Assembly: GCA_949287085.1 (NCBI GenBank)
Contig: CASEER010000006.1
Coordinates: 124,001-188,000, forward strand
Source: an uncultured Coriobacteriaceae bacterium
Lineage (GTDB): Bacteria > Actinomycetota > Coriobacteriia > Coriobacteriales > Coriobacteriaceae
Direction of reading: 5' to 3'
DNA: 64,000 nt
Part shown: positions 48,993 to 64,000 of the stretch, piece after piece
How positions within the stretch are numbered: position 1 is the stretch's first letter
Layout: every line of letters begins with the position of its first letter
Position numbers and translations under genes: made by a program
The notes under the pieces: model-generated
What the model saw: the letters and a program-made list of their open reading frames with translations, nothing else
Databases searched by the model: none
Told to the model about the DNA's origin: nothing

Positions 48993-50240
48993 ATGTGCAC
49001 AAAGACGAGGTGGGAGCTTGTAGACGGTAGGCTGAGCATCTTTGGAGATATCTCGGCAGATACGCTGCTTGATGGCGATGGCATGCGCCCGCCCTGGGAG
49101 GCATATGCTGAGGATATCGTTGCGGTTGTCATCATGCCCGGTGCTCATGTGCTAAGTTTGCAGGGGCTGTTTTCGTACTGTAGGAACATAGAGCGCATTG
49201 ATGGCTTGGGCAATCTGTCATATGGCGGGGCTGGCGCTCCCAATGGACAAAGCGCCGCGTCGCTCTTCTTAGAATGCACATCGCTCCAAAGCGTCGATCT
49301 TCACGGATTCGATCTGTCGCATATCGATGATACGAGCTACATGTTTTGCGGCTGCGAGAGCATACGGCACATCGACCTGCGTGGATGCGATCTCTCAAGC
49401 GTGCGCCGTGCATGGAGCATGTTTCAAAGCTGCGCGGCGCTTGAATGCGTTTACCTGCCTGAGTCTGGTATGCCCCAGCTGCGCGAGGCGGGCAGTCTGT
49501 TTCAGGGTTGCAAATCGTTGAAAGCGTTCGCGCTAGCCGATTTACATGCGCCGAATATAGAAGATATGTCGCGTATGTTTAGGATGTGCAGCCGTTTAGC
49601 TTCGGTATCGTTTTCGGGTGCGCAAACAGCGCGACTGGTGACCATGGAGAATCTCTTTTTTGGATGTCGTAGCTTGCGCCATGTAGATATCGATTCCATT
49701 CAAACCAGCCGTGTTGAAAACGTATCTGGTATGTTTCGCGGCTGCGTCATGCTGGAGCGCTGCGACTGCGGCTCGTGGGATACATCTTGCGTGAAGGATG
49801 CATCGTTCATGTTTTGCGATTGCCGTATCCTGTCGAGCGTGCCGGTTGCCTCGTGGAGCATGGACCGCTTGCGAATCGCGCGCGGCATGTTTGCCCGCAC
49901 GGCAATCAAAACGGTCGATCTTTCTACATGGTGCACGTCAAGCTTGGAAGATATCAGCAACTTGTTTTTAGGGTGCTCCCGTCTTCATTCCGTATGTTTG
50001 GGGAAGCTTGATCTGTCGCATGTGCTGCGCGCCCAAGGCATGTTCTGCGGATGCGAAGCGTTGAGCGGTATTGTGTTTTCTGGTGCATCCATGTCACATG
50101 TGCGAAACGTATCGGAGATGTTCCGCTGGTGCAAATCTTTGCGACGGCTTCCGCGCGAACTTGTTTGTCTGCAAAGCGCCGAAGATGCGTATGCCGCAAC
50201 TGATGGATGTCCGGCAGGCGATTGCCCGTTAGCCCGCTGA
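48993..50240 (+). CDS. Stand-alone BspA-type (DUF285) repeat protein, cytoplasmic
   Basis: 415 residues counted from ATG 48993 (MCTKTRWEL). After a cap of about 70 residues (LVDGRLSIFGDI, PPWEAYAEDIVAVVIMPG) come about twelve units of 23-25 residues, with a repeating ..MF.GC.SL..VDL..FD.S.. pattern (DTSYMFCGCESIRHIDL, ENVSGMFRGCVMLERCD, LEDISNLFLGCSRLHSV). DUF285 repeats are usually found on secreted surface proteins. Here no signal peptide, membrane helix or sorting motif is visible. The repeats are more diverged than those of the kinases downstream. First gene of the island and a possible partner or decoy of the kinase repeats. Confidence 0.75.
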   Translation: MCTKTRWELVDGRLSIFGDISADTLLDGDGMRPPWEAYAEDIVAVVIMPGAHVLSLQGLFSYCRNIERIDGLGNLSYGGAGAPNGQSAASLFLECTSLQSVDLHGFDLSHIDDTSYMFCGCESIRHIDLRGCDLSSVRRAWSMFQSCAALECVYLPESGMPQLREAGSLFQGCKSLKAFALADLHAPNIEDMSRMFRMCSRLASVSFSGAQTARLVTMENLFFGCRSLRHVDIDSIQTSRVENVSGMFRGCVMLERCDCGSWDTSCVKDASFMFCDCRILSSVPVASWSMDRLRIARGMFARTAIKTVDLSTWCTSSLEDISNLFLGCSRLHSVCLGKLDLSHVLRAQGMFCGCEALSGIVFSGASMSHVRNVSEMFRWCKSLRRLPRELVCLQSAEDAYAATDGCPAGDCPLAR

Positions 50241-50312
50241 CGTCGGTTGTGCAACTTCTCTCAGACGACCAATAGCATCATACATGCTGCAAACGCGTTG
50301 AAAGGAGCTGCA

Positions 50313-51551
50313 ATGTTTCGTGTGACTCAGATGGAAACAGGAGCAACGGGCAAACACTCCGAGCACCGTTGGCGTAATTGGCTTACATGCGCCGGTTGTC
50401 AAAGCCATGCGGTGGTCTTTGTCGCAGCGATGGTTGTCCTTGCATTGGAAGGCGTGGGTCTAAGGTATGTAGAGAATGGAGTCACAGGGGCGGCGCTTTG
50501 CCTCATGCGTATGGCGGCGGCTGTGGCGGCGGGTATGGGGGCCTGGTGGCTTATCCGACGCTGTCGAAGCAGCGCACTGTGCACGGCGAGCCTTTGCGGA
50601 TCGATCCTGTCGCTCGTGTTGAGTATTGTCCTTGCTTCTTTCGGAGGCTTTTCGATACGTATTTCTGGGTATGTAGGCATGGCGGTTTCAGCGGCTGCCG
50701 TACTTGCCGTCATGGCTGCGGCTACCTACGGCGCGGCGATGCGTGAAATCGCGTTCACGAAGGAGTCTACTAGCGCGGCGAATAGCGTGGTGGTAAAGAC
50801 GGAGGAGCCGCTTCTGGGCAGAATCTGGGCGCCGTTCATGGCGGGTGCTCTTACGATACTCTGCGCTGTCTCGGCGTGCTACGCTTTCAATGGACGCGCG
50901 GCCATGGTGATCTTGGCCTTTGTGGTGGCGTGCATTATCCTGTGGAAGCGTCTGACTCACGGTGTACACCTGCTGCTTGTTGCGGTAGGCGTGAGTGGAG
51001 TCGCCGTGCTTGCGTGCATCAATATCCGTGGCCTTGAGATGTGGTTCAACGCCTTCAGCGATCCGTATGCGTATGGGTATGTGTGGTTTACCTTTTTGCG
51101 CGTGCTGAGCCAGGGGCTTTTTCCCCGCGGTGTCGTGCCCGGCGCGTATTGGCCGCTGGTGCCCATGGGCACAACTGAGTTTGTGCTGGCCGAAGTGGCC
51201 GATACGCTCGGTGTGCTGGGCCTCGTATCATCTCTGCTGCTTGCTGCCATGGGGCTTTACTCTGGCGTGATGGCTGCCGTGGGAGAGCACGGGCAGCGGC
51301 ACGACATCGCCCTTGGGTTCACTAGCTTGATGGCGGCTTCGGCGCTGCTTAATACGCTGAAGGTCTTTCATATCGTGCCGTTTTTCGCACTGTCGTTTCC
51401 TATGCTTTCAGATTCGGTGTATGCGCAATTCCTTGTGCCATTTATGGCGACCGTTGTAGCAATGATCCTCTTCGCGCGCACGGATTCGAAGTTGAGCGCC
51501 AGCAACGAGTCCAAATGCGACAACAGCGAAGCTGAGCGCCCAGCACCCTAA
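50313..51551 (+). CDS. Divergent SEDS-like (FtsW/RodA type) membrane protein
   Basis: 412 residues with about ten hydrophobic helices, AAAGGAG before ATG 50313. The second half has the layout of SEDS glycosyltransferases: FLRVLSQGLFPRGVVPG, then MGTTEFVLAEVADTLGVLGL (compare HNDFIFAVxGEELGxxG of FtsW/RodA), then a long helix pair and FALSFPMLSDSVYAQ (compare xGxxLPFxSxGGS). The catalytic-type Asp position is not certain, so activity may be lost. In actinobacteria RodA is encoded next to fhaA, fhaB, pstP and pknAB, which matches this neighbourhood. The call is by eye and could be wrong. Confidence 0.5.
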   Translation: MFRVTQMETGATGKHSEHRWRNWLTCAGCQSHAVVFVAAMVVLALEGVGLRYVENGVTGAALCLMRMAAAVAAGMGAWWLIRRCRSSALCTASLCGSILSLVLSIVLASFGGFSIRISGYVGMAVSAAAVLAVMAAATYGAAMREIAFTKESTSAANSVVVKTEEPLLGRIWAPFMAGALTILCAVSACYAFNGRAAMVILAFVVACIILWKRLTHGVHLLLVAVGVSGVAVLACINIRGLEMWFNAFSDPYAYGYVWFTFLRVLSQGLFPRGVVPGAYWPLVPMGTTEFVLAEVADTLGVLGLVSSLLLAAMGLYSGVMAAVGEHGQRHDIALGFTSLMAASALLNTLKVFHIVPFFALSFPMLSDSVYAQFLVPFMATVVAMILFARTDSKLSASNESKCDNSEAERPAP

Positions 51552-51647
51552 ATGTTGCGTTTGGGAAAACGATTAATCTTGGCCGGGCTGGGTCTTTTAC
51601 GATAGCAATCAGAAGCTTTCAGTGCGAGGCGCGGCGATGAAGAATGA
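51552..51647 (+). other. Spacer after the SEDS-like gene
   Basis: No gene or terminator is clear. The hexamer TACGAT at 51598-51603 sits 23 bases after TTGGCC (51579-51584) and is a weak promoter candidate. Confidence 0.25.
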
Positions 51648-51896
51648 ATGGGGGCAACGTCGGACCCTGCGTTCGCCAGAGACGCGCAGAGCAAGGTCGG
51701 AATCGCCGCCTTAAAGAATATGAAAGTTGCCGCATGGGGCGAGGGCGATCTATTGCAACTCGGTTTGCGGGATCAGCGCGTGCGGTATATGCACGGGGTG
51801 CTGCTGGGGGCACTGAACGAGCACTGCTATTCGCAGCGACCAAACGCTCAACGTGCCAACGGACGCGTTCAAGAGAAAGTCCCATCGCGCCCGTGA
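51648..51896 (+). CDS. Possible small ORF
   Basis: An 82-codon frame (MGATSDPAFARDAQSK... ending KVPSRP) in the spacer between the SEDS-like gene and the FHA gene. It has no strong ribosome site and no family. It may be real, part of the leader, or chance. A 128-codon frame overlapping it in another register is less natural. Confidence 0.3.
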   Translation: MGATSDPAFARDAQSKVGIAALKNMKVAAWGEGDLLQLGLRDQRVRYMHGVLLGALNEHCYSQRPNAQRANGRVQEKVPSRP

Positions 51897-51947
51897 TTAG
51901 TCTTTTAGGATGGAATGTAGGGCGTCACTTCTGTAGGGGGCATGGCT

Positions 51948-53648
51948 ATGAAAAATCTAACAGGCAATCTTATCGAGTTTTGCGCGATCACCAAGGCCGC
52001 CAAGAGTGCGATCAGCTCTGCGACTGGTAAAAACGATGCCGAGACGTGCCTACGGCAAGGCTGGCAAAAGGCCTTTGAGGGCAAGAAGTTCCAGCGCTTG
52101 GGCGGCGGGGATATTCGATTCTCGTTTTCTGCGCGGAACATGGCGAGCAAGGAGCTGTGGTTCGAGGTCAAGCTGCGGCAGAACGACCCCAAAAAAGGCA
52201 GCGGGAAAAACGCCCTGCCGTACTTTACCTATGCGGTCGATGCCATGGATACCGAGGCACGCGAGTACGCCAGCTTGCACGATTTCGCCTACATAGCGCC
52301 CGATGTCTACCAGCAGCTCAAGGCTCTCGCACTGCCCGAGCCGTGGTCATTTGTCGACAAGGACAACGGCTACGAGATTTTGAGCTGGTACCTTAATGGC
52401 ACCTTCCTGCATCTACTGGACGAGGGCAAGATTCTGTACGGGGCAGATGGCGAAGGCAAGATTGCAGCCTTTTGCACGGGCTTGGTGAACAGGAGCTTTG
52501 AGGATATCTACTGTGTGTGCGTGCCCAACACGAACGGTAAGGCCGAGTGGCGTGTTGATGCCTTTTGCCCCAAAGGTTCCAGGCATGCGGGCAAGCGCCT
52601 GGTGCGTACGTTTGGTAACGAAATGCCCAAACGTGCTACGTACTATCATAACGTGACGGATGTGGTGTACGACGGCACGCTCGAGCTGGTGCCCGATTAC
52701 GACCATCTTATGCATCGTCTTTATCGTATAGAGCTGTCTTCGCTTCGCCAGCTGTGCTTTGGTTCTTCCGAGGCTACCGAGGTAATACACAGGGCAGAGC
52801 GCGAGAAGGATCCCGCAAAGCGCGAGCAGGTCCTTAAGGATCTGACGGATACCGTTATGAACGACGAGAACCTGCATCGAACAATTTGGCGTGCCTTAAG
52901 CGATGCATGTAGCCTGGCGCAGACGCGCGCCCGGTATATGTTCTCTAGCGCTATTCCCGCTTGGAACCCGCAGCGCGGCGTGGGCGGCAAGGTGTTTTTC
53001 TGCCTGCCGTTGAGCTTGGTTGACGTTAACCGTGTCGATGCGGTGTTGGTTGCGGCTCGCGTTGAGGTTCAACGGGAGGGGCAGGTCTACGCCTACTACG
53101 AGGGCGCGACGCTCAACTCCTTGCAGATGGCCTACAAGAGCGCGCGTACGCTGCAGCGCGTCGATGGAATGATGGGGTGGATTGAGTCCGCCTTCCCAAC
53201 CCTGCATCGTGCGGACGAGGCGGGTCGAGCTCAGGAGCGCTCGGCGTTCTCGAGCTCCATAGCCCAAGAGATGACGCCCGCGCCAGTGCGGCCGGTTGTG
53301 GAGGAAGGTGCTGCCACGCGTATAGCGCAGCTAATCCCCTCCGACCCCGTGATGGGAAAGTACGCCGTGCGGCCGGGCGATACCATTGGCATCCATCGCC
53401 GCAGCGAGTCTCCTCAGCCCAAGATCGAGTTGCCGTCGATCGAGACGTTCCACTACGTGTCGCAAAAGCACGGCACGTTCAACTGGTCCGGCGGCGCCTG
53501 GAGCTTTACGCAGCACGGTACCAACGGCACCGAGATCTTCCGTGCCGATGGCAGCGTGCAAAAGCTGGGCCCAGGGAGCACGGCTACGCTGTTCTCGGGC
53601 GACGAGCTTTCGTTTGCGGGATCGGCGCACATGCAGTTTTTGGCATAA
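51948..53648 (+). CDS. DUF3825-like protein with C-terminal FHA domain
   Basis: 566 residues. ATG 51948 is favoured because it has AGGGGG seven bases upstream; the first ATG at 51942 is too close. Residues about 30-270 resemble DUF3825 (EILSWYLNGTFLHLLDEGKILY, AAFCTGLVNRSFEDIYCVCVPN, then WRVDAF), a domain sometimes joined to nuclease or RNA-binding modules. A middle helical part (about 270-430) follows. The last 95 residues are an FHA phosphothreonine-binding domain: IGIHRR, ...YVSQKHGTFNW (the S.KH motif), then GTNGTEIF. No membrane segment. It probably docks on a phosphorylated partner made by the island kinases. Confidence 0.7.
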   Translation: MKNLTGNLIEFCAITKAAKSAISSATGKNDAETCLRQGWQKAFEGKKFQRLGGGDIRFSFSARNMASKELWFEVKLRQNDPKKGSGKNALPYFTYAVDAMDTEAREYASLHDFAYIAPDVYQQLKALALPEPWSFVDKDNGYEILSWYLNGTFLHLLDEGKILYGADGEGKIAAFCTGLVNRSFEDIYCVCVPNTNGKAEWRVDAFCPKGSRHAGKRLVRTFGNEMPKRATYYHNVTDVVYDGTLELVPDYDHLMHRLYRIELSSLRQLCFGSSEATEVIHRAEREKDPAKREQVLKDLTDTVMNDENLHRTIWRALSDACSLAQTRARYMFSSAIPAWNPQRGVGGKVFFCLPLSLVDVNRVDAVLVAARVEVQREGQVYAYYEGATLNSLQMAYKSARTLQRVDGMMGWIESAFPTLHRADEAGRAQERSAFSSSIAQEMTPAPVRPVVEEGAATRIAQLIPSDPVMGKYAVRPGDTIGIHRRSESPQPKIELPSIETFHYVSQKHGTFNWSGGAWSFTQHGTNGTEIFRADGSVQKLGPGSTATLFSGDELSFAGSAHMQFLA

Positions 53649-53714
53649 GGGTACTGGCGACATGCTGTGTGGCGGCGCAGCTGGATACGTGCAAGGTTTT
53701 GACTGGGGGATCCC

Positions 53715-56078
53715 ATGCGATTTATCAACTTGGGCACCAATGAGGCTCTGCTTGATGGCGGGTTTAAGGAAATCAGCCCCATTTCTGCTACGGATGGGCC
53801 TTCTGGCTCCTATGGCACAATCTACCATATACAACGCAACGGAATCCTCCCGGGCCTCTGCGTGGTCAAAGCACTGAATGATCACGGCGTTACGCTTGCA
53901 ACGCAGGATATTCGGCAATATGCGCTCTCTATTTACGAGCGAGAGAAATCGTGGAAAGAACTTCATAACGAGTTTCGGTGTCTTGTGGGGCTTAACGGCC
54001 TTATGGAGCAGGGTAAGTGGCATGTTCCGCGTGCATATGCTTACGGTGTGGTGGCAGAGGACTACGAGAGTGGGGAGTCGTTCATTCGTCCGGCTTTTGT
54101 GATGGACGAAATCGTGGGGGCATGTTCCCTTGCGACCATTACCGTCTCGCGATCCGAGCCGTTTCCCACGCGTGAGGTTGCACGTTTTGGGAAAATTCTG
54201 CTCAACATTATTGCTAGGCAATATGATGCTACACGCGTGGCGCATGCCGACCTGTCCCTTAACAACGTGTTCGTCCGACTGACGAATGAGGAGGAGTTCG
54301 AATGGGTGTATGTTATCGATTACGGGCAATCGCGCCACGAGTACGATAACGTTACGCCTACATGCGTAGGGCCGAGGTTGGGCACCCCTTCGTATGCCGC
54401 TCCTGAGGTCTTTCCCAGCGGATTTGTTGATGATCCTGGGTTAAGCAAAGAGCATGCATTTTTTTATAAAAGAAGAAACGAAAAAGAGGTAGACATATGG
54501 TCTACGGGTGCGCTTCTGTATACGTTGCGCACGTGGAGCCGTCCGCCCCTTAGGGCGACGCTGACCAACCTGGGGCCAATGTGCGGCAATAGGGTCATTA
54601 GCGATTCGGAATACTATGGATTCCTCATGCTGGACAAGCGGCATGGCCTTGCTTTGCCGGATAGCCTGCGGCAGGCAAGCGAGGGAGACCGTTGCCTGAG
54701 CGAGGCGATTCAAATCTGCACGCGGTGGAATCCCGAAGAGCGCAAGGTTGAGGATATACAGCGTTGGCTCGATAGGGCAATTGAACTGAGTCGTGTGGGC
54801 AGGAGACAGAGATATGAAGCTGCGCCCGAAAAGACACCGCCCAGGCCGAAGAAAACCGGTGTCTTTGCGGCGATGTATAAGGTGTATCGTCAAGATGGAT
54901 CGTCCTATTCCGACAAGAAGATGGATCTGCTCGTTTTCGGGTCAGACGAAAGCGGCTGCACACTGTCTCGCTGCAGCCTGCATGGGGAGAAGTTCCAGCT
55001 CAAGATGGTTGGAAACCCTATTGATATGTCTAACAAAGACTTGTCGGAAGATGGTAGAGTCGCTGGCGGCCCTTGGAAAGAAATCGAGGTCGTTTATTTC
55101 CGGCAGAAGATTGCACCCAAAACCATGGGCGCTTGGTTTTATAAATGCACACGGCTCAAAAAACTGTACGGAATAGAGAATCTCGACACGTCTCAAGTTA
55201 CCGATATGCAGTTTCTTTTCACCCAATGCAGCTCTTTAGAGTACGTGGACGTAACGCACTTTGATACATCGCACGTTCAGCTTATGAATTCGATGTTTCG
55301 CCTCTGTACTTCGCTAAAAAGCATTGATGTATCGGGCTTTGACACCTCGAATGTTTGCTACATGGACTACATGTTCTGTGGCTGCTTCACGCTTGAGACA
55401 TTGAACGTATCTTTCTTTGATACGTCTTGTGTGATGAGTTTCAGAGCGATGTTTCAAATGTGTAACGCCCTTAAAGCAATCGATGTCTCCCGATTTGTTA
55501 CATCATCTGCAACAGACTTCAGCGTAATGTTTGACGGTTGTTGTGAGCTATCTGACCTCGATGTATACAGATTCGATACCTCTAAAGCCGTAGATATGCA
55601 CGCTATGTTTAGAAATTGCCAGAAGATAGACATCATTGATGTTTCTCGATTCGATGTCAGTAAGGTACAAGATTATTCTGAGATGTTTGCTTATTGCATC
55701 GCAATGCAGGGAGTGAATACCTCACATTTCGTTACAACTTCAGGTTTAAATTTTAAAGGCATGTTTTCAGGCTGCGCAAACATTGAATTCATCGATATTA
55801 GCCGAATGGATTTCTCACGTGCCTTAAGCGTTGAAAGTATGTTCGCGGATTGTAGCTCATTAAAAGTTCTGAATGGGGCTCCGCTTTCGGTTGGTCCCAA
55901 TACTGAGACAAAGAATGTTTTTCTTGGTACGCAGGTTTTTGGAATCGACGGGTGGGACCACTTCGGAATCGAATCAAAACGAGGAAACAAGCCAAGTTAT
56001 GCGAACGTTGCTCCAAACGATCCATGCCCATGCGGAAGCGGAAAGAAGTACAAGAACTGTCACGGTCGGCGAAGCTGA
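53715..56078 (+). CDS. Ser/Thr kinase fused to DUF285 repeats and a SEC-C motif
   Basis: 787 residues, soluble. Kinase domain about 20-350: Gly-rich loop GPSGSYGTIY (28-37), Lys52 in VVK, catalytic HADLSLNN (His177, Asp179, Asn184), DYG (202-204, in place of DFG) and APE (229-231), then DIWSTGALLY. All catalytic residues are present, so activity is likely. From about 378 comes a cap (AMYKVYRQDG, DLLVFG) shared with the next gene, then about 11 DUF285 units (IDVSGFDTSNVCYMDYMFCGC). The C-terminus is PCPCGSGKKYKNC, a SEC-C zinc-binding motif. The 55.0-56.0 kb part is richer in A+T than the flanking genes. Kinase-DUF285 fusions of this type are not known to me. Confidence 0.85.
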   Translation: MRFINLGTNEALLDGGFKEISPISATDGPSGSYGTIYHIQRNGILPGLCVVKALNDHGVTLATQDIRQYALSIYEREKSWKELHNEFRCLVGLNGLMEQGKWHVPRAYAYGVVAEDYESGESFIRPAFVMDEIVGACSLATITVSRSEPFPTREVARFGKILLNIIARQYDATRVAHADLSLNNVFVRLTNEEEFEWVYVIDYGQSRHEYDNVTPTCVGPRLGTPSYAAPEVFPSGFVDDPGLSKEHAFFYKRRNEKEVDIWSTGALLYTLRTWSRPPLRATLTNLGPMCGNRVISDSEYYGFLMLDKRHGLALPDSLRQASEGDRCLSEAIQICTRWNPEERKVEDIQRWLDRAIELSRVGRRQRYEAAPEKTPPRPKKTGVFAAMYKVYRQDGSSYSDKKMDLLVFGSDESGCTLSRCSLHGEKFQLKMVGNPIDMSNKDLSEDGRVAGGPWKEIEVVYFRQKIAPKTMGAWFYKCTRLKKLYGIENLDTSQVTDMQFLFTQCSSLEYVDVTHFDTSHVQLMNSMFRLCTSLKSIDVSGFDTSNVCYMDYMFCGCFTLETLNVSFFDTSCVMSFRAMFQMCNALKAIDVSRFVTSSATDFSVMFDGCCELSDLDVYRFDTSKAVDMHAMFRNCQKIDIIDVSRFDVSKVQDYSEMFAYCIAMQGVNTSHFVTTSGLNFKGMFSGCANIEFIDISRMDFSRALSVESMFADCSSLKVLNGAPLSVGPNTETKNVFLGTQVFGIDGWDHFGIESKRGNKPSYANVAPNDPCPCGSGKKYKNCHGRRS

Positions 56079-56122
56079 CGCTGACTCAACGACTTGGATT
56101 TTCGAGATGAAGGGCGTGCATC

Positions 56123-59100
56123 ATGGCTAGGCATTTTCGCTTTGAGATAAATAATCTGAACATTGCCCTTATAGCCAAGGGCGGCGATATTCGCACCCTC
56201 GTTGACCCGTTCTTGGCCGACGAGGTCGGCGAGGGCGGGTACGGAGAGGCCTACCGCGTCTTGCCCCAGCCCGGTTTTCCCGCTGCGGGTATCATGAAGG
56301 TATTCAACCATTGGCCGCTCGAGTGCGAGCCGGGAGACACGCGTCGCTACAACACTGGCTGGGACCTTGTCGATCGCGAGTACGAGATGCTCCGGCAGCT
56401 TGACGGCCTAGGTGGCCATGTGCCCAAGGTCTTTGCGAGTGGCTATTACATCGAGGTGCAAAACAGCGGCAAGCTCCGCGTGCGCCCGGCTTTTGTTATG
56501 GAGGAAATTGGGGATCCTGCCAAGCCTCTATCGAACGTAGTTTCAAGCCACATGTCCGAGAAGCACAGCGGGTTTGATGCGAGCCGGACCGCAACGTTTG
56601 GGCTTAAGCTGCTGGATATCATCGATATGCTCCAAGACAGTTCTTCCCATCGTGCCGTTGCCCATGCCGACTTGAGCCCCAGCAACGTGTTCGTCCGTTT
56701 GTCCGAGGACGGACAGTCGTTTGAGTGGTTGTACCTGATCGACTTTGGGCAGGGCAAGTACTCTGCACAGGGTGTCACCCCGTCCAATTCGAAAGAAGGG
56801 GTCCGCTTTGGACAGCTTCCCTATACGGCTCCAGAGCTTGTGCCAAAGGTATTTCCCAAGGAGGGGGAACCGGAGTATCTGTTTGAACATGAGCGGTACT
56901 ACGATAGCGAGCGAAACCATGCTGGGGCAGACGTATGGTCGCTGGGTGCCTTGATGTACTACGTTGCCACAGGCGATGAACCCCGGCTGTCGGTGCACTA
57001 CAAAAGTGGCGGGTATTGGCGCGGCGACGAGCAGATTGAGGACAGCCAAGAGGCGTATCGGATTCTTTTGAAAGAAAAGCGACCGGGAATCTGCCTGCCC
57101 GATTACATGAGCGAGGAAGGTGAGCTTAAACTCAGCAAGGCAATTCGGTGCTGCACGGAGTGGAACCCCTCCAAGCGTGACCGGGGTTACATCCGCCGTC
57201 TGCTGGAGCAGGCAGTTCAGGGTGGCCGCACCGAATCGCAGTTTGAGAGCATGTCGCAGGTGACACCGGTCACTCCTCCGCAGCGTGAGGAAAAGGGCAA
57301 AGCCGGTACCGTGTTAGCCGGTGCCTACAAGATGTACCGTTCGGATGGCACTCCGTTTTCTGAGAACGATATCGATCTGCTGCTCTTTGGTGATGCCAAA
57401 GACAAGATTGACGTCAAGGAGTATACATACCAAGGCATTCAATATGATGTGGTGCATACAGAGAAGCTCTACGACTTGTCTAAAGCTGGCTGGGGGGTTA
57501 CGCACTGGGCGTGCGATTCACCGTGGCAGACGGTGCAAATTGTAGACTTTGTAACTAAGGTTAAACCGCAGGCCATGACCGCATGGTTTGCGGGCTGCTC
57601 GCAGCTTGTTGACATCTTACATATCGACCGACTCGATACGTCGGCGACAACCGACATGCAGTTTTTGTTCCATGGGTGCTCTTCGCTTGAATACGTCGAC
57701 GTGTTTGGCTTTGACACCTCAAACGTTGAGCGCATGAATGCCATGTTCCACGATTGCTCGGCACTGGAGGGGGTCAACGTAAGCTCGTTTGACACAGCGA
57801 ATGTTGTGTCAATGGCTGCTATGTTCCAAAACTGCTCTGCGCTTTCCGTGCTGGATGTTTCACGTTTTAGCACACGCAAGGTGAAGAACTTTTCCTATAT
57901 GTTCAGTGGTTGCTCTAGGCTGTCACGCCTCGATGTTTCTAGATTCGATACATCATGCGCTACAAACCTCGGGTTCATGTTTAACGACTGCAGCGCGCTG
58001 CGTCGCTTGGATGTTTCCAGATTTGTGACCGGTGCCGCTACGTACATGGCCGCTATGTTCCAAAACTGCCGCATGCTCGACGTGATTGACGTATCGCATT
58101 TCGACACGTCGTCGGCAGAGAGCTTGGCGGGCCTTTTTATGGGCTGCGAGTCAGTTCGACATCTGGATGTATCGCGCTTCCAAACAGGGCGGGCCAAGGA
58201 CATGCGGAGTATGTTTAGCAGGTGCAAGCTGCTACGATCTATCGATACGATTCATTTCGACACCTCGTGCGCAGTCAACTGCAACCACATGTTCAACGGC
58301 TGCTCGGCGCTGGAGCATGTGGATGTCTCGCGTTTCCGCACCGGCAATGCGAAGTACTTGAACTCGATGTTCGCCGGCTGCTCTTCGCTAGAAGCCGTTG
58401 ATGTATCTGGGTTCGATACATTAAAGGCAGTCGATCTGAGTTACATGTTCTATAACTGCTCGTCGCTTAAAAGCATTGGGGATGGGTTTGATCCCAAGCG
58501 TACGGGAGTGAACACAACGGGTATGTTCGATGGGTGCGACAACCTTCCTTGCCCAGAAAACGTTTATGCCGCAATGTACAAAATGTACCATCAGGATGGA
58601 TCGCCCTACTCGGACAAGAAGATGGACCTCTTGGTTTTTGGTCAAGGCGAGGAAGGCTGCCGTCTTGCGCGGTGCAGCTATTCCGGCGAGACATTTGATT
58701 TGAGGCAGATTGACCAAACCCTCTCCATGCGCGACACGGTTTTTCATATGAAGGACGGTGTCTGCGATTCTCCGTGGCAGGACGTAGAAGCGGTGTTCTT
58801 TGCCAGCAAAGTGGCGCCAGAGAGCATGCGCGACTGGTTCGCGGGATGCGAGAGACTCAAATACTTGAGCCATATCGGCAACCTGGACGCCTCCCGTGCG
58901 ACCGACATGCAGTTCCTGTTCTATGAATGCAAATCGCTTACGAGCCTCGATCTGTCCACGTTCGACACGTCGAGCGTTAGGTTCATGAATTCCATGTTCT
59001 CCGGCTGCTCCGCTCTTCGGTCTCTCGATGTGTCTGGCTTTGACACATCCGCTGCCTCAAATATGGGGTGGATGTTCTATGGTTGCTCCAACTTGGAATC

Positions 59101-59998
59101 CCTCGATGTTTCTGGCTTCCGCACCGGTGGGGTGAAGGACCTGCAGTCGATGTTCGACGGCTGCTCCTCCCTACAGTCCCTCGATGTCTCCCGCTTCGAC
59201 ACCTCGGGTGCCAAGAGGCTGAACCACATGTTCTATAACTGCTCTAGCCTCGAGTTCATCGATGTCTCTGGCTTCGAGACCAGTGCTGCTGAAGACCTTT
59301 GTGCGATGTTCTCCGGCTGCAAATCTCTCGAACGGTTGGATGTTTCCAGGTTCGACGCATCATCCGCTTCAAGGCTGTGCAGTATGTTCAACGACTGTTG
59401 GGAACTTCGCGAGCTCGATCTTTCGCACTTCGATACTTCTAAGGCGACTTCTCTCGATTGCATGTTTGCCGACTGCTCGAAATTGAGGAAGCTCGACGTG
59501 TCGGGTTTTAATACTTCTCGCATCACGGACATGAGGCATGTATTTCTCAATTGCTCGTCGCTGACTGAGCTTGACGTAAGCCATTTTGATACAAGAAGCG
59601 CGGAAGATATGACCTGCATGTTTGCTGGTTGTTCCGGTTTGCTCTCACTTGACGTTTCTAGCTTTGATACCTCATCGGCGACAGATATGGGATGCATGTT
59701 CAGTGGTTGCTCCGGTCTTACTCAGTTGGATATTTCCAACTTCAATACGAGCAAGGTTAAGAACTTCAAGTGTATGTTCTACCAGTGTTCGTCGCTCAAG
59801 CGGCTTAACGCAGAGAATCTCAATCTTTTGAATGCGGCGGATGTGAGCTGGATGTTTGCCGATTGCGGTGCACTTGAAAAACTCCTGGGCTATCCATTTG
59901 CCGTCGGCAAGGATGCAAATACCGAGAATATGTACAATGGATGCAGCAAACTGCTCGATAAGCAGCAGATATATGTCATGCCGCTCAACAGTAATTGA
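56123..59998 (+). CDS. Large Ser/Thr kinase with two DUF285 repeat blocks
   Basis: 1291 residues, no signal peptide or membrane helix. Kinase domain about 30-370: GEGGYGEAYR (36-45), Lys59 in IMKV, HADLSPSN (His181, Asp183, Asn188), DFG (207-209), APE (236-238), DVWSLGALMYY. Two copies of a cap module follow, near 401 (GAYKMYRSDG...DLLLFG) and near 816 (AMYKMYHQDG...DLLVFG). Each is followed by an MxxWFAGC segment and a DUF285 block of about 12 and about 14 units (LDVSRFDTS..A..M..MF.GCSSL). The second half therefore duplicates the first. The repeats are strikingly regular and every unit carries FDTS-like residues and a Cys. It overlaps no gene and starts 44 bases after the first kinase. Confidence 0.88.
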   Translation: MARHFRFEINNLNIALIAKGGDIRTLVDPFLADEVGEGGYGEAYRVLPQPGFPAAGIMKVFNHWPLECEPGDTRRYNTGWDLVDREYEMLRQLDGLGGHVPKVFASGYYIEVQNSGKLRVRPAFVMEEIGDPAKPLSNVVSSHMSEKHSGFDASRTATFGLKLLDIIDMLQDSSSHRAVAHADLSPSNVFVRLSEDGQSFEWLYLIDFGQGKYSAQGVTPSNSKEGVRFGQLPYTAPELVPKVFPKEGEPEYLFEHERYYDSERNHAGADVWSLGALMYYVATGDEPRLSVHYKSGGYWRGDEQIEDSQEAYRILLKEKRPGICLPDYMSEEGELKLSKAIRCCTEWNPSKRDRGYIRRLLEQAVQGGRTESQFESMSQVTPVTPPQREEKGKAGTVLAGAYKMYRSDGTPFSENDIDLLLFGDAKDKIDVKEYTYQGIQYDVVHTEKLYDLSKAGWGVTHWACDSPWQTVQIVDFVTKVKPQAMTAWFAGCSQLVDILHIDRLDTSATTDMQFLFHGCSSLEYVDVFGFDTSNVERMNAMFHDCSALEGVNVSSFDTANVVSMAAMFQNCSALSVLDVSRFSTRKVKNFSYMFSGCSRLSRLDVSRFDTSCATNLGFMFNDCSALRRLDVSRFVTGAATYMAAMFQNCRMLDVIDVSHFDTSSAESLAGLFMGCESVRHLDVSRFQTGRAKDMRSMFSRCKLLRSIDTIHFDTSCAVNCNHMFNGCSALEHVDVSRFRTGNAKYLNSMFAGCSSLEAVDVSGFDTLKAVDLSYMFYNCSSLKSIGDGFDPKRTGVNTTGMFDGCDNLPCPENVYAAMYKMYHQDGSPYSDKKMDLLVFGQGEEGCRLARCSYSGETFDLRQIDQTLSMRDTVFHMKDGVCDSPWQDVEAVFFASKVAPESMRDWFAGCERLKYLSHIGNLDASRATDMQFLFYECKSLTSLDLSTFDTSSVRFMNSMFSGCSALRSLDVSGFDTSAASNMGWMFYGCSNLESLDVSGFRTGGVKDLQSMFDGCSSLQSLDVSRFDTSGAKRLNHMFYNCSSLEFIDVSGFETSAAEDLCAMFSGCKSLERLDVSRFDASSASRLCSMFNDCWELRELDLSHFDTSKATSLDCMFADCSKLRKLDVSGFNTSRITDMRHVFLNCSSLTELDVSHFDTRSAEDMTCMFAGCSGLLSLDVSSFDTSSATDMGCMFSGCSGLTQLDISNFNTSKVKNFKCMFYQCSSLKRLNAENLNLLNAADVSWMFADCGALEKLLGYPFAVGKDANTENMYNGCSKLLDKQQIYVMPLNSN

Positions 59999-60081
59999 GG
60001 CACAAAAGCTATCCCCTTGTTCGATCAGCATCTTTTCCATCGTATAGAGAACGATGCGTTCACGTGGAGGGAGTCAACGCC

Positions 60082-61218
60082 ATGGCCGAGGCATTGAAGG
60101 TTTTCATCAAAGCGTTCTGCAAGGAGTTCACAACGGTGCCCGAGTGGCAGGCGCTGAGTTCGTACGATCGCAGTGTGAAATCAAAGTACGAGCCGAGTCG
60201 CATCTACCGGCTCGAGCCGGATGTCGTGCTTGCCCGGGCAATTCGGAGCTTTTCCGCAACATCGGACTACGGGTCGTTTGCCGAGCTGGTCCGCGACCGT
60301 ACATCGAACGGCTCGCCTGTTGCCCGTGCCTTGCGAGGGGACGCTCAGCAGGTGTCTCAAGAGCTTATGAGAAGCGGCCGCGGCTATTTGAACATTAATT
60401 TGCAAGATGAGCTCAAAGCGGGGTTTGTTTGCAAGGCGGAGTTTCGCCATGCGTTCGACGAAGCGCTGCGACACGACGGGCTGGCTTACGACCTCGATGG
60501 ATTTTGGAGGGCGGTGGACAGCGAGCTCGCCGAGCTTTACCGCGTGTCCGCAGACGACTATGAGTCGATAATCGATGCACAGGCCGCTGCGATTTCTGCA
60601 TGCGTATACGCCTGCCTGACCGGCGCGCGTGACAACAGGCAGCCTATGGGGTTCGCGCTTGAGACAACGCCCGTCGCCATCGGTAGGGTGGATTCGGCGT
60701 TCACGCCGGTCCCAAGCGGCGAGGCTCAGCTAGTTCCCGTTGTAATGGCAGGGCCGGACCCGGTGGACTATTGCGTTCAGGTTGCTGGAGACGCTAACGA
60801 CGGCTGCGGTACCGTGTCTGTGTATCGGTTTTCTGCCGAGCAGGGCGCGCGGATTGGACGGCAGGACGAAGCGTGGTGCGCCGCCGACGGGCATTGCCCC
60901 GTGATTACCAAGGCGGCATACGCCTCGCGGCATCACTGTGAGATCGAGTTCAAGGGTGGTCGCTGGATTGTTACCGATGTGGGAACCGATGGCAAGGGCA
61001 GCACAAGCGGCACGTTGATAACGCCCGCCGATCTGGATGCTCTTCCCGTGCTGATGCATAAAGAGTCGGATAACCCTATAAGGTCGTGCGAGCTCCACCA
61101 TGGCGACATGATTTGCGTACACCCTCAGCCCGTTACAGAGGGTGGCTACGATGCTGCCTATTATTCATGGACCTCGCATGTTCCCGACGAAAACTATCGG
61201 TTCGAGGTGCTCGCATAG
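60082..61218 (+). CDS. FHA-domain protein with novel N-terminal region
   Basis: 378 residues. ATG 60082 follows GGAGGGAG. The first ~200 residues are alpha-helical with no recognised family (VFIKAFCKEFTTVPEWQAL, SELAELYRVSADDYES). The C-terminal FHA domain (about 260-375) shows IGRQDEAW, YASRHHCEIEF (the SRHH motif), WIVTDVGTDGKGSTSGTLI and HGDMICV. The FHA Arg and Ser are intact, so phosphothreonine binding is plausible. No membrane segment. Confidence 0.75.
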   Translation: MAEALKVFIKAFCKEFTTVPEWQALSSYDRSVKSKYEPSRIYRLEPDVVLARAIRSFSATSDYGSFAELVRDRTSNGSPVARALRGDAQQVSQELMRSGRGYLNINLQDELKAGFVCKAEFRHAFDEALRHDGLAYDLDGFWRAVDSELAELYRVSADDYESIIDAQAAAISACVYACLTGARDNRQPMGFALETTPVAIGRVDSAFTPVPSGEAQLVPVVMAGPDPVDYCVQVAGDANDGCGTVSVYRFSAEQGARIGRQDEAWCAADGHCPVITKAAYASRHHCEIEFKGGRWIVTDVGTDGKGSTSGTLITPADLDALPVLMHKESDNPIRSCELHHGDMICVHPQPVTEGGYDAAYYSWTSHVPDENYRFEVLA

Positions 61219-61304
61219 GGCCCTGCCGATGCCGGTTGCGCAACTGTTGCAAGACATCAAAGAAAATGGGGTGGAAATACATCCGAATCACGAAGGGACA
61301 CGAT

Positions 61305-62558
61305 ATGTTATTCCCGAAGCGTACTCGATCTCATGAACACATGAAGCATGCAAAAAGCTTGCCTTCATCCAAGCCCATCCGTATTCCTGTGGAAGGCGAA
61401 GCGCCTCACGCCCCGGAGGTACAGCGTAACGGGGCCGTGTTTAACGACGACGCACCCGATTCCAATAAGTCCAGTGCCGTCACGCCCCTAGAGCAATCCC
61501 CGATTATCCTGGCAGGAGGAGCAACGCGGCCTTTGGTAGACAAAGATCCTGCTGTGCAGGGTCCCTCTAGCGGGGCGGGTGCGCTGGATGCCGACGCGCA
61601 ACTGGACGATATGGTGCCTCGGCCATGCCCGACTGGCGAGATGGACGATGGGTCCGCAACGGATGTTGCGCCGCAAGAGACAGAGGAAGATGCGCAGGAT
61701 TCCGATAGCTACGATGCTTGTGATTCTGCTTGCGATACCCCGGTGTCTTCGAAATTTGCAAGCACGATCGTATACCCTGTGGGGCTCATCGCGTCCGGTT
61801 CGAGTGAGCGGGGCTCCCGGGCGCGCAACGAAGATAGTTTTGACATAGGCAAATCGACGGGAGCATGCGAAGACTGTCTGTGCGTAAGCGACGGCATCGG
61901 AGGGGCTCCTTACGGTGATATCATGTCCAAGCTCTGCTGCTCGGAGTTTCTGCAGGTTTGGAAAGATTCTGGCGGGGATCGGGACGTCTATAGGCGCTGG
62001 CGTGTGGGCGAATGGTGCATGTGGCGGGCCTTTTCTGCAACCGATGCGTTTGTGAGCAGGGTGAGCAAGCACTTGGGTAAGGGCTCAGGGGCGACGTTGG
62101 TGGCGGCGGCGCGCTGTGACGACGAGCTCGTGTTTGCCCGCGTTGGCGATTCGACGGCATATGTGCTGATGCCGGAAGGCGGGCTCGTCCATGTGTTTGG
62201 CGACAGCGGGCGTGTGTCTACAGAGAGCAACGCGCTGAAGGCCGCCATGGGATATCACATGCTTGAGCAGGGGAGTGGAGTCGTCCGCGTGCAGACGGCC
62301 ACGGTTCCCCTTCGAGAAGGCATGAGGGTGCTGCTGTGTACTGACGGCGTGTGGACGCAGCTTGGACTCGATCGCATCGCAGAGCTGCTAGCAATGTACG
62401 ACGACCCTTATTCGTCGGCATACCGCATCGTGCGCGAGGCGGTCGAGGCGGCTGAGGCGCAGAGCGATAACGCAACGGCTGTAGTTGCCCGGGTCGCCAG
62501 ATTGCGTGATTCGTCCAAGGAGCCAACCCCGTTTGCATCGATCTCGTACGCGCTGTAG
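61305..62558 (+). CDS. PP2C-family Ser/Thr phosphatase
   Basis: 417 residues. The start at 61305 (MLFPKRTRSH) follows AAGGGA. The first ~165 residues are low-complexity and acidic. The PP2C domain then holds every motif: SRARNEDSF, CVSDGIGGAPYGD, GSGATLVAA, ARVGDSTAYVL, LLCTDGVW and SDNATAVVARV, with the metal Asp residues in place. It should reverse phosphorylation by the island kinases. There is no C-terminal membrane helix, unlike actinobacterial PstP, so it acts in the cytoplasm. Confidence 0.88.
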   Translation: MLFPKRTRSHEHMKHAKSLPSSKPIRIPVEGEAPHAPEVQRNGAVFNDDAPDSNKSSAVTPLEQSPIILAGGATRPLVDKDPAVQGPSSGAGALDADAQLDDMVPRPCPTGEMDDGSATDVAPQETEEDAQDSDSYDACDSACDTPVSSKFASTIVYPVGLIASGSSERGSRARNEDSFDIGKSTGACEDCLCVSDGIGGAPYGDIMSKLCCSEFLQVWKDSGGDRDVYRRWRVGEWCMWRAFSATDAFVSRVSKHLGKGSGATLVAAARCDDELVFARVGDSTAYVLMPEGGLVHVFGDSGRVSTESNALKAAMGYHMLEQGSGVVRVQTATVPLREGMRVLLCTDGVWTQLGLDRIAELLAMYDDPYSSAYRIVREAVEAAEAQSDNATAVVARVARLRDSSKEPTPFASISYAL

Positions 62559-62640
62559 GGAAGTTGCGCAACGTTGGCAGGCGGTGCATGCATACTGCTC
62601 CACGACAGTTAAAGCAGTTTGTACGAGAAGGGATACTGCC

Positions 62641-63750
62641 ATGAACAACAACGCATACCGCAACAATCGTTCCTTTACCCGCATGGCCAAGAGCGGGGCC
62701 GACTCCATCGAGCGCGGGGCAACGCGCGCCTTCGATTCTCTCGTGGGCTCGCACCCCATCATTCGTTTGCGTCTGCTGCTTGCTACCAAGTTGGGCGGGG
62801 CGAGCATGATCTCTCCCACGCCTGCAGAGATTATCCAGTCCATCGTGGCAAAGGCTCGCGAGGGCTTGGTCACCTGGGGCTGCAATGGTGCGGGCACCCA
62901 GTGCCCCGACTGCTACGAGGTGGCGGTTTCCGTGGCCGCGTGGCGGGCGTATTACGGCAGCAACACCGATGGCATCTGCCGCCGCATCGAGCGTGAGGTT
63001 CGCGAGCGCCTGCAGCGCAAATACGGTTGCAGCGTGGAGCCCCGTGTGTCGATTCAGCCCACGAACTCACTGCTTGACGGGGAGTGCACGGTCGAAGCGT
63101 CGTACTACGATGCTCGGTACGACCAAAATGCCGAAGTCGACGAAGCGGCCACTGATTGGCCTGGTTCCCAGGATGGTTCCGAGCGCACTGTGCGCATCGA
63201 TCCGGCTGGACACGCCTGCGCCTATGCCGGTGTAGGCCGTGATGCCAGCGAGGATGCCGAGGCAGCTACTGGAGACGTGGAGCGCAACGAGGGGAGCGAA
63301 GTGTCTGAGGTGCCTGAGGCACCAGAGGCACCAGAGGCGGCCACCGCTGCTGCCCCGGAGTTTACCCCGGCGCCCGTGCTCGATTCTTCGATCGTTGTCG
63401 CCTATGGGCGCAAGCGCTATCCCGTGACGCGTGAGATGACGATCGGCGTCGTGCGCGGCGACACGCCCGATCAGGCGGATATCAGGCTACCGTACTCGCA
63501 GGACTTCTACCTGGTCTCGCGCAAGCACGGACGGTTCACGTACGACGAGCCCGCGCAGGCGTGGCGTTTCGAGCAGCTTGGTTCGAACGGAAGCACGCTC
63601 GTGCGCGACGGGGAGGTTTCTGCCGTTCTTAAGAAAGGCGATTCCGTTCTGCTGAAAGACGGCGACGGTCTTCTGCTCGCCGGTGCTCGCCAGCAGGTTT
63701 CCATCTTGGAGCCTACCGAAGACCGCACCGTGTGCCAGTACCAGAGCTAA
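62641..63750 (+). CDS. FhaA-like FHA-domain protein
   Basis: 369 residues. ATG 62641 starts after a GAGAAGGG site. The N-terminal part (about 1-145: RMAKSGADSIERG, SPTPAEIIQSIVAKAREG, CPDCYEVAVS) has the outline of the DUF3662 domain of FhaA. An acidic Glu/Pro/Ala linker (about 180-245) follows. The FHA domain is at the end: YPVTREMTIGVVRGD, FYLVSRKHGRFTY (S.KH motif), LGSNGSTLV and KGDSVLLKDGDGL. FhaA regulates peptidoglycan precursor export in mycobacteria; here its partner may be the SEDS-like protein or a kinase. Confidence 0.75.
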   Translation: MNNNAYRNNRSFTRMAKSGADSIERGATRAFDSLVGSHPIIRLRLLLATKLGGASMISPTPAEIIQSIVAKAREGLVTWGCNGAGTQCPDCYEVAVSVAAWRAYYGSNTDGICRRIEREVRERLQRKYGCSVEPRVSIQPTNSLLDGECTVEASYYDARYDQNAEVDEAATDWPGSQDGSERTVRIDPAGHACAYAGVGRDASEDAEAATGDVERNEGSEVSEVPEAPEAPEAATAAAPEFTPAPVLDSSIVVAYGRKRYPVTREMTIGVVRGDTPDQADIRLPYSQDFYLVSRKHGRFTYDEPAQAWRFEQLGSNGSTLVRDGEVSAVLKKGDSVLLKDGDGLLLAGARQQVSILEPTEDRTVCQYQS

Positions 63751-63939
63751 CAGGGGCCGATGCGGCATCTTGTTTGCTTTAGATTGGTTGAGCTGGAAGG
63801 GGCCTAAATGGACGGTCAGCAGGAGTAAACGCTCAGTTTCTTTGAGAGGATGCTTCTTGTTGAGCTTGCAGGTAAAGGTACACGGCGGAATGTCTGCAGG
63901 GCGCAGGGCGCGCCCTGCGGCGAGAAGGGGGGGGTCTTT
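63751..63939 (+). other. Spacer before the last gene
   Basis: No gene is supported. A short frame at 63808 encodes only MDGQQE. GCAGGGCGCGCCCTGC (63903-63918) is a perfect 16-base palindrome, followed by a GAGAAGGGGG ribosome site for the next gene. Confidence 0.5.
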
Positions 63940-64000
63940 ATGGGTCGTTATACGAAATCGTCATTCACTCCGGTTTACGTTGCTGTTTACGAGATGTCGG
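63940..64000 (+). CDS. 5' end of a further island gene (partial)
   Basis: ATG 63940 follows GAGAAGGGGGGGG and opens a frame (MGRYTKSSFTPVYVAVYEMS) that runs off the window. It keeps the strand of the island, so the cluster probably continues. The product cannot be named from 20 residues. Confidence 0.7.
   Translation, partial: MGRYTKSSFTPVYVAVYEMS

Follow-up and report, generated by a model that had tools for sequence, protein, structure and literature searches.

The subject of this report is a cluster of eight consecutive plus-strand genes (g1 to g8) which fills positions 48993-63750 of a 64,000-nucleotide stretch of Coriobacteriaceae DNA, hereafter the window (G000:C6:124001-188000). The actinobacterial PknB-PstP-FhaA-RodA operon is the kinase operon of wall growth, and judging from sequence comparisons we give about even odds to the cluster being a second, cytosolic version of it: a phospho-Thr-Pro relay in which FHA domains would serve as readers and a PP2C phosphatase as eraser. 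The window's genome, G000, is an Enorma-group member of the Coriobacteriaceae with a 1.54 Mb assembly that is 76% complete. Labels beginning with G denote genomes, C contigs and L loci; G002 is the genus-mate Enorma massiliensis phI and G162 is Olsenella sp. SW781.

An initial annotation, made from the sequence alone, had named the gene families of this island and described two active-looking Ser/Thr kinases with DUF285 repeats in place of a membrane anchor and PASTA domains. All of this holds: the eight genes are real and intact with the listed families, inspection of g4 and g5 finds the catalytic residues retained in both, and Pfam and hydropathy scans find neither a transmembrane segment nor a PASTA domain in either. 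Pfam, NCBIfam and a repeat count agree that island proteins carry DUF285 repeats, as BspA/PARCEL surface proteins do, here as 26-aa units with an invariant Phe and Cys (10 in g4, 27 in g5 and 12 recognisable ones in g1). A simple hydropathy scan, which is not a dedicated predictor of export signals, gave no above-threshold hydrophobic stretch in g4 or g5; in g1 it gave a single one, at residue 42 and thus not N-terminal, and showed no N-terminal signal peptide. A structure-sequence search with the kinase profile returned eukaryotic kinases, TTK first (59 sequences), and nothing beyond the kinase fold. An initial scan of the genome contigs with the whole kinase found no relative. Elsewhere in the same genome, contig C10 encodes a very large DUF285 protein (L149:7712-13000, minus strand) which by eye resembles a surface protein and has repeats up to ~45% identical to the g5/kinase repeats.

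The island is a second module and not the genome's PknA/PknB, because four relatives carry the canonical operon at another place in the genome and because the island kinases form a separate clade. In G002, G162, G291 and G137, an operon of FhaA, short FhaB, PP2C, RodA::PBP and PknB is found apart from the island. The four canonical RodA::PBP proteins carry both Pfam domains, a multi-transmembrane kinase precedes FhaA in three of the four operons (it was not seen in G291), and PknB has PASTA domains in G002, G291 and G137, that of G162 having been read as a frame only. In the kinase tree, the island kinases (10 of 19 rows) group as one clade with 88/95 support, apart from PknB and the other operon kinase. 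The initial annotation would have counted it against its reading if g4 and g5 were the genome's only PknA/PknB orthologues, and this separate clade rules that orthology out. The second kinase tree left out G132, in whose open reading frame (ORF) there is no HxD....N motif, and G133, a near copy of G134. Kinases of a third type stand closest to the island clade on the tree, at L013:6805-9674 in Enorma massiliensis (where an FHA gene follows directly) and at L015, so the island kinase need not derive from the canonical operon. In the PP2C tree, which has no outgroup and carries a long-branch warning, a 100/100 branch divides nine island phosphatases, g7 among them, from five canonical ones.

Of the order's 395 genomes, 372 have an FhaA_N match and 29 have at least two (counted from the list). 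For the window's own genome, the initial annotation had proposed looking for a canonical cluster elsewhere: family searches of the 76% complete assembly found no FhaA_N outside the cluster and no RodA::PBP, the SEDS family search was passed by a single gene, and the sole other kinase match (contig C22) lacks PASTA. The likeliest reason for these missing canonical parts is the incompleteness of the assembly.

The resemblance to fhaA-fhaB-pstP-rodA-pbpA-pknA-pknB that the initial annotation drew from the parts list is partly real homology, not analogy alone, given the FhaA_N domain and the RodA::PBP fusions of sister islands. FhaA_N is present in sister islands, for example in the g8 homologue of Olsenella sp. 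SW781 (L058:9231-10286), which scores above the family cut-off, and a g8-type profile built from seven island rows matched canonical FhaA with a probability of 97.8%; g8 is probably a divergent FhaA. RodA::PBP fusions with both domains occur in the islands of G291 and G132 (L055 and L057), and on the SEDS tree these two are sister to the canonical fusions (85/90). The window cluster has no such RodA::PBP pair, only the SEDS-like g2, which has ~9 hydrophobic segments and no transpeptidase domain by Pfam or NCBIfam. In a search of ten loci, g2 matched the G291 island RodA::PBP (tblastn, 22%, 3.6e-6).

In the fold search with g3, the rows listed are FHA domains, followed at weaker scores by SMAD MH2, and a second look covered residues 458-568. 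The N-terminal part of g6 (~185 aa) is all-helical in its AlphaFold model, and the good fold matches of g6 in the PDB are FHA domains only; the FHA domains of GarA and OdhI are among the best matches of both g6 and g3. The phosphatase g7 carries the motifs RNED, DGIGG, TDG and SDN, which we take to be the metal-binding motifs of PP2C. A protein search gave 16 relatives of g6 (itself included). In a phylum-wide sample, the g6 profile matched 78 of 396 genomes: the full-length matches are two Enorma genomes, the other rows listed match in the FHA part, and Olsenella sp. SW781 and G007 are not among the matches, though both carry g6-like proteins. DUF3825, the domain of g3 that precedes the linker and FHA, may have a link to RNA, since an OST-HTH match, though below threshold (0.044), was obtained for one protein with this domain. 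In many genomes of the order DUF3825 matches occur without an FHA part.

Most island core proteins share a Thr-Pro motif. It was counted in 34 island core proteins, with kinases cut to their first 395-480 residues to exclude the repeats, with ORF starts outside the window taken uncurated, and with G133, G126, G007, the RodA::PBP proteins, the Hsp70-like protein, g1, g2 and the P proteins left out. In this set, Thr-Pro is the most enriched of 354 dipeptides (77 versus 34.6 expected, z 7.2), and the reversed Pro-Thr is far less enriched (42 versus 34.6). Without the Enorma proteins, Thr-Pro still ranks first of 298 dipeptides (52 versus 24.5), while in 15 canonical operon proteins it occurs 21 times versus 21.8 expected and ranks 138 of 264. 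A wider protein set gave 95 versus 47.1 for the island and 26 versus 24.6 for the canonical operon, and the control ORFs gave 84 versus 72.2 (other G000 ORFs) and 49 versus 51.1 (ORFs near canonical operons). Relatives are not independent, so the test on the window alone matters: its six core proteins hold 16 Thr-Pro versus 6.2 expected (permutation p 0.00035, obtained after the fact), yet g4 and g5 are paralogues.

Linkers or tails account for 10 of the 17 Thr-Pro sites in the full-length window proteins: three stand in the stretch that joins kinase and repeats (g4 T374; g5 T381 and T384), four precede an FHA domain (g3 T445; g6 T196 and T208; g8 T242), and three flank the phosphatase match of g7 (T60, T145 and T408). 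Two more are in the kinase activation segment (T214 and T219), and the remaining five are g4 T224, g5 T410, g6 T314, and g8 T60 and T275. Thr-Pro is invariant in 17/17 g6 rows and in all 10 of the 10 FHA-bearing g3 rows, and the linker sites of g3 and g6 fall in stretches with a predicted local distance difference test score (pLDDT) <50.

Conservation of gene order, which the initial annotation had proposed as a check and whose absence from all related genomes would have refuted it, is seen in a second Enorma species, with related versions in other families. In Enorma massiliensis phI, the order is g1, g3, kinase, g6, PP2C, g8, g9, with one kinase only. Identity between the two is 46% for g1 (387 aa), 60% for g3, 60% for g6, 56% for PP2C and 45% for g8; g5 is 50% identical to the sole Enorma massiliensis island kinase over 687 columns. 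At E 0.001, the kinase has a match in two of five genus genomes (G000 counted). A search with g3 matched 125 of 395 genomes of the order, many through DUF3825 or FHA alone, and ten loci were taken from that list; in nine the match covers the FHA part or both parts, and in one (G136) the DUF3825 part. Kinase and PP2C hits are both present at seven of the ten (G134, G133, G137, G126, G132, G291 and G162). Related islands occur in two further family-level groups of Coriobacteriales.

The C-terminal part behind the kinase domain is exchanged between lineages: it is DUF285 in Enorma and Olsenella (the Olsenella match being at G162:C33), BspA-type LRR_5 in G134, G137 and G126, Sel1 in G291 and G131, and DUF6273 in G132. 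In G007 (L016:3065-6187, minus strand), the kinase is instead fused behind a membrane part with a SEDS match of 8.2e-4, which is below the cut-off. On the kinase tree this fused kinase joins the island clade, with a long branch, and its gene adjoins a g6-like FHA gene and one for a VirD4-type coupling protein. What stands on the output side differs between lineages as well: beside the RodA::PBP fusions of G291 and G132, the lone g2 of the window and the absence of a SEDS gene in Enorma massiliensis, the Olsenella sp. SW781 island has a gene for an Hsp70-like ATPase, together with one for a coiled-coil protein whose GrpE match is weak and below threshold (L058:10270-12965).

Several findings weigh against reading the island as a cytosolic wall-kinase operon. 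Of the 65 genomes in the family, only 4, G000 among them, have a kinase match at E 0.001; the two outside the genus are G007 (6.5e-17) and G050 (6.0e-5), and the G050 kinase lies outside the island clade. The module is thus accessory in Coriobacteriaceae. Three of the ten loci lack one or both enzymes: the G131 locus has a kinase and FHA proteins without PP2C, and those of G324 and G136 have neither kinase nor PP2C. g2 is a degenerate SEDS-like protein, with Glu at the position of the Asp in the SEDS extracellular loop which we take to be catalytic; in the same alignment, this Asp is kept in the four canonical RodA, both island RodA::PBP and the G007 fusion. The SEDS tree gives no placement for g2 and the G007 fusion, both of which are long branches, and the Enorma massiliensis island has no SEDS gene. 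g8 by itself falls short of the FhaA_N cut-off (0.082), and a profile built from just the g8 proteins of the two Enorma genomes matched canonical FhaA in the FHA part only. Finally, the Thr-Pro linkers were first noticed by eye in alignments and then counted, which makes the p value a post hoc one; two of the 34 island proteins lack the motif, 10 of the 15 canonical proteins have at least one, and the linker position reads TT or TA in two FhaA-like proteins.

If the island is a second version of the wall-kinase operon, it might work as follows. The repeat array would select a ligand or client, whose binding would bring the kinase together or switch it on. The kinases would phosphorylate Thr-Pro sites in their partners' linkers and in their own activation loop. 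A complex would then assemble as FHA domains recognise phospho-Thr-Pro in other FHA proteins, in the kinase and in the phosphatase. The g7 phosphatase would remove these marks and reset the complex, and the FhaA-like, DUF3825 and helical-domain proteins would be adaptors passing the signal to an output. An earlier output was probably a RodA::PBP wall synthase of the module's own, which is still whole in two sister islands; in the window it would have decayed to the degenerate g2, which may now be a membrane partner or a sensor of lipid precursors rather than a polymerase. The present output could be wall growth, RNA or defence. The proposals of the initial annotation on growth control and on sensing or scaffolding by the repeats are equally hypothetical, and so is a working role for the SEDS-like protein, as the Enorma massiliensis island lacks SEDS and g2 has Glu for Asp.

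A more specific reading, which we put forward tentatively and do not expect to be right, is intracellular surveillance: a proline-directed Thr kinase with interchangeable LRR-like arrays, FHA readers and an eraser, which evolved alongside the wall operon. Were this true, one phospho-Thr-Pro relay would be fitted with different recognition modules in each lineage, much like eukaryotic repeat-based immune receptors. More generally, a second, soluble version of the operon in Coriobacteriales is a natural experiment on the roles of the kinase sensor domain and the SEDS protein, and the island permits a direct test of a Thr-Pro code written by a bacterial kinase and read by FHA domains.

A second controller of the wall machinery itself is a possible but doubtful alternative. 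PASTA domains are thought to sense lipid II for PknB, and here g2 would be the lipid II sensor, with RodA, PBPs and FhaA partners being phosphorylated. The RodA::PBP fusions of the two sister islands, the kinship with FhaA_N and the G007 fusion beside its g6-like gene all fit such a controller, but the Enorma massiliensis module does without any SEDS gene, the G007 case combines a SEDS match below the cut-off with a long-branch kinase, and the sole extra domain hint for DUF3825 (the OST-HTH match) is not a wall domain.

We think it improbable that the island is an anti-phage or element-conflict system, in which the repeat kinase would recognise an intruder's protein and FHA adaptors would trigger the response. 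Its distribution is patchy, its guanine-plus-cytosine (GC) content is 55.4% (48.8% in g4) versus 62.4% for the first 48 kb of the window, and at L004:2938-9626 downstream there are genes for a PIN-domain protein, for an MmeI-type restriction-methylase in which the five MmeI domains are all present, and for an AAA-ATPase-like protein whose PDDEXK match stays below threshold. The Enorma massiliensis island adjoins ORFs read by eye as integrase, primase-like and relaxase-like, but its GC equals that of its upstream flank. Similarly, the kinases score on the PADLOC models MAD6, PD-T4-6 and PglW, which have no cut-off, but these scores look generic: NCBIfam PglW gives 26 bits versus a cut-off of 990. 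Among the domains that Pfam recognised in the cluster there is neither a nuclease nor a toxin, one island of genus g36 adjoins genes read by eye as housekeeping, and 15 of the 16 genomes of that genus have at least two FhaA_N matches (not all of the extra ones were examined).

Some narrower candidates were rejected. PADLOC matches are confined to the kinases and the SEC-C end of g4 (at 0.01, there were none for g1-g3 or g6-g8), which does not describe a simple defence system, and the island holds no PADLOC partner genes that would make its kinases members of BREX (PglW), MADS or PD-T4-6. The TagH model of type VI secretion gave 16.5 bits for g3 and 17.3 for g6, versus a cut-off of 120.25, other genes of that system not having been searched for. 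The idea of a plasmid or phage element was also set aside: the plasmid matches listed for the kinase (20 of 77 records) look repeat-only and start at residue 344 or later, g3 found only distant DUF3825 in two plasmid records and one phage record, and g6 had no relative in viral contigs.

Decay of an accessory pkn operon copy into something with no coherent function, to which a broken g9, the degenerate SEDS protein, lower GC and patchy occurrence might point, is very unlikely, as all eight frames are long and unbroken, catalytic residues are in place, most of the genes are 45-60% identical to the Enorma massiliensis copy, and there are Thr-Pro sites that are invariant within otherwise variable linkers.

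Among known systems, the pstP operon is one of the closest: like the island, where the FhaA-type member is a probable one, it unites in a single cluster a PP2C, FhaA-type and other FHA proteins, Ser/Thr kinases and a SEDS-type protein, and the RodA::PBP of sister islands is related to the operon's fusion. According to PMC6554272, pstP, rodA, pbpA and a PASTA kinase are linked throughout Actinobacteria. The island differs in that its kinases are soluble, belong to another clade and have repeats instead of transmembrane and PASTA parts, in its added DUF3825-FHA and helical-FHA proteins, in its degenerate or lost SEDS protein, and in that relatives have the canonical operon separately. The FHA switches GarA and OdhI, like others, place an FHA domain beside a flexible stretch with a conserved threonine, as the island proteins do, but the island's Thr-Pro motif is common to several partners and its N-terminal domains are different ones.

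The island repeats belong to the family of DUF285/PARCEL (BspA-like) proteins, with a period of 26 aa, but form the C-terminal part of soluble kinases. PARCEL repeats are described, in the text available of PMC2996958, as horizontally spread 25-aa repeats linked to membrane proteins, and there the word "kinase" appears once, in a reference title on another protein. Bacterial kinases with LRR, TPR, WD, NHL and PQQ repeats, including an LRR kinase of Pseudomonas aeruginosa, are covered by PMC1262709, the accessible portion of which does not mention DUF285 or Sel1. The repeat kinases in that portion are single proteins, whereas the island is a recurring module with its own FHA set, a phosphatase and an exchanged repeat type. 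Literature searches on DUF3825, on DUF285/BspA kinases and on FHA/PknB in Coriobacteria gave no description of the module, in a coverage that excludes most subscription papers; searches pairing "kinase" with DUF285 showed no such kinases by title or abstract start, and those with Enorma massiliensis nothing on topic by title.

The genes of the island are listed below.

Table 1. Genes of the island, in window coordinates.
Gene	Positions	Strand	Length	Description	Match
g1	48993..50240	+	415 aa	DUF285-only protein	Pfam DUF285 1.3e-31
g2	50313..51551	+	412 aa	SEDS-like membrane protein	NCBIfam spoVE 5.9e-8, below cut-off
g3	51942..53648	+	568 aa	N-terminal region, DUF3825, Thr-Pro linker, FHA	
g4	53715..56078	+	787 aa	Soluble Ser/Thr kinase, DUF285 array (10 units), SEC-C motif	
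g5	56123..59998	+	1291 aa	Soluble Ser/Thr kinase, two DUF285 arrays (13 + 14 units)	
g6	60082..61218	+	378 aa	All-helical N-terminal domain, Thr-Pro linker, FHA	Pfam FHA 1.1e-7
g7	61305..62558	+	417 aa	Soluble PP2C-type phosphatase	Pfam PP2C_2 6.6e-13
g8	62641..63750	+	369 aa	FhaA_N-like domain, Thr-Pro linker, FHA	FHA 7.2e-5

Directly past the window end lies a ninth, broken gene of DUF285 type (g9). Its start encodes 95 aa (L004:1940-2227), and a further DUF285 match (C6:188164-188385) sits inside a 103-aa open frame. The intact counterpart in Enorma massiliensis has 344 aa (L012:129-1163), to which g9 is 42% identical over 72 aa. Consensus sites for internal promoters and terminators are fewer in the island than in shuffled sequence. 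Upstream, a gene read by eye as ThiH-type (window:46746-48029) had no match in four other Enorma genomes in a search without a positive control, and because this query was unmatched, the insertion could not be delimited. Farther upstream, the window contains an AdoCbl-II (adenosylcobalamin) riboswitch at window:9787-9873 on the plus strand, barely above the gathering score.

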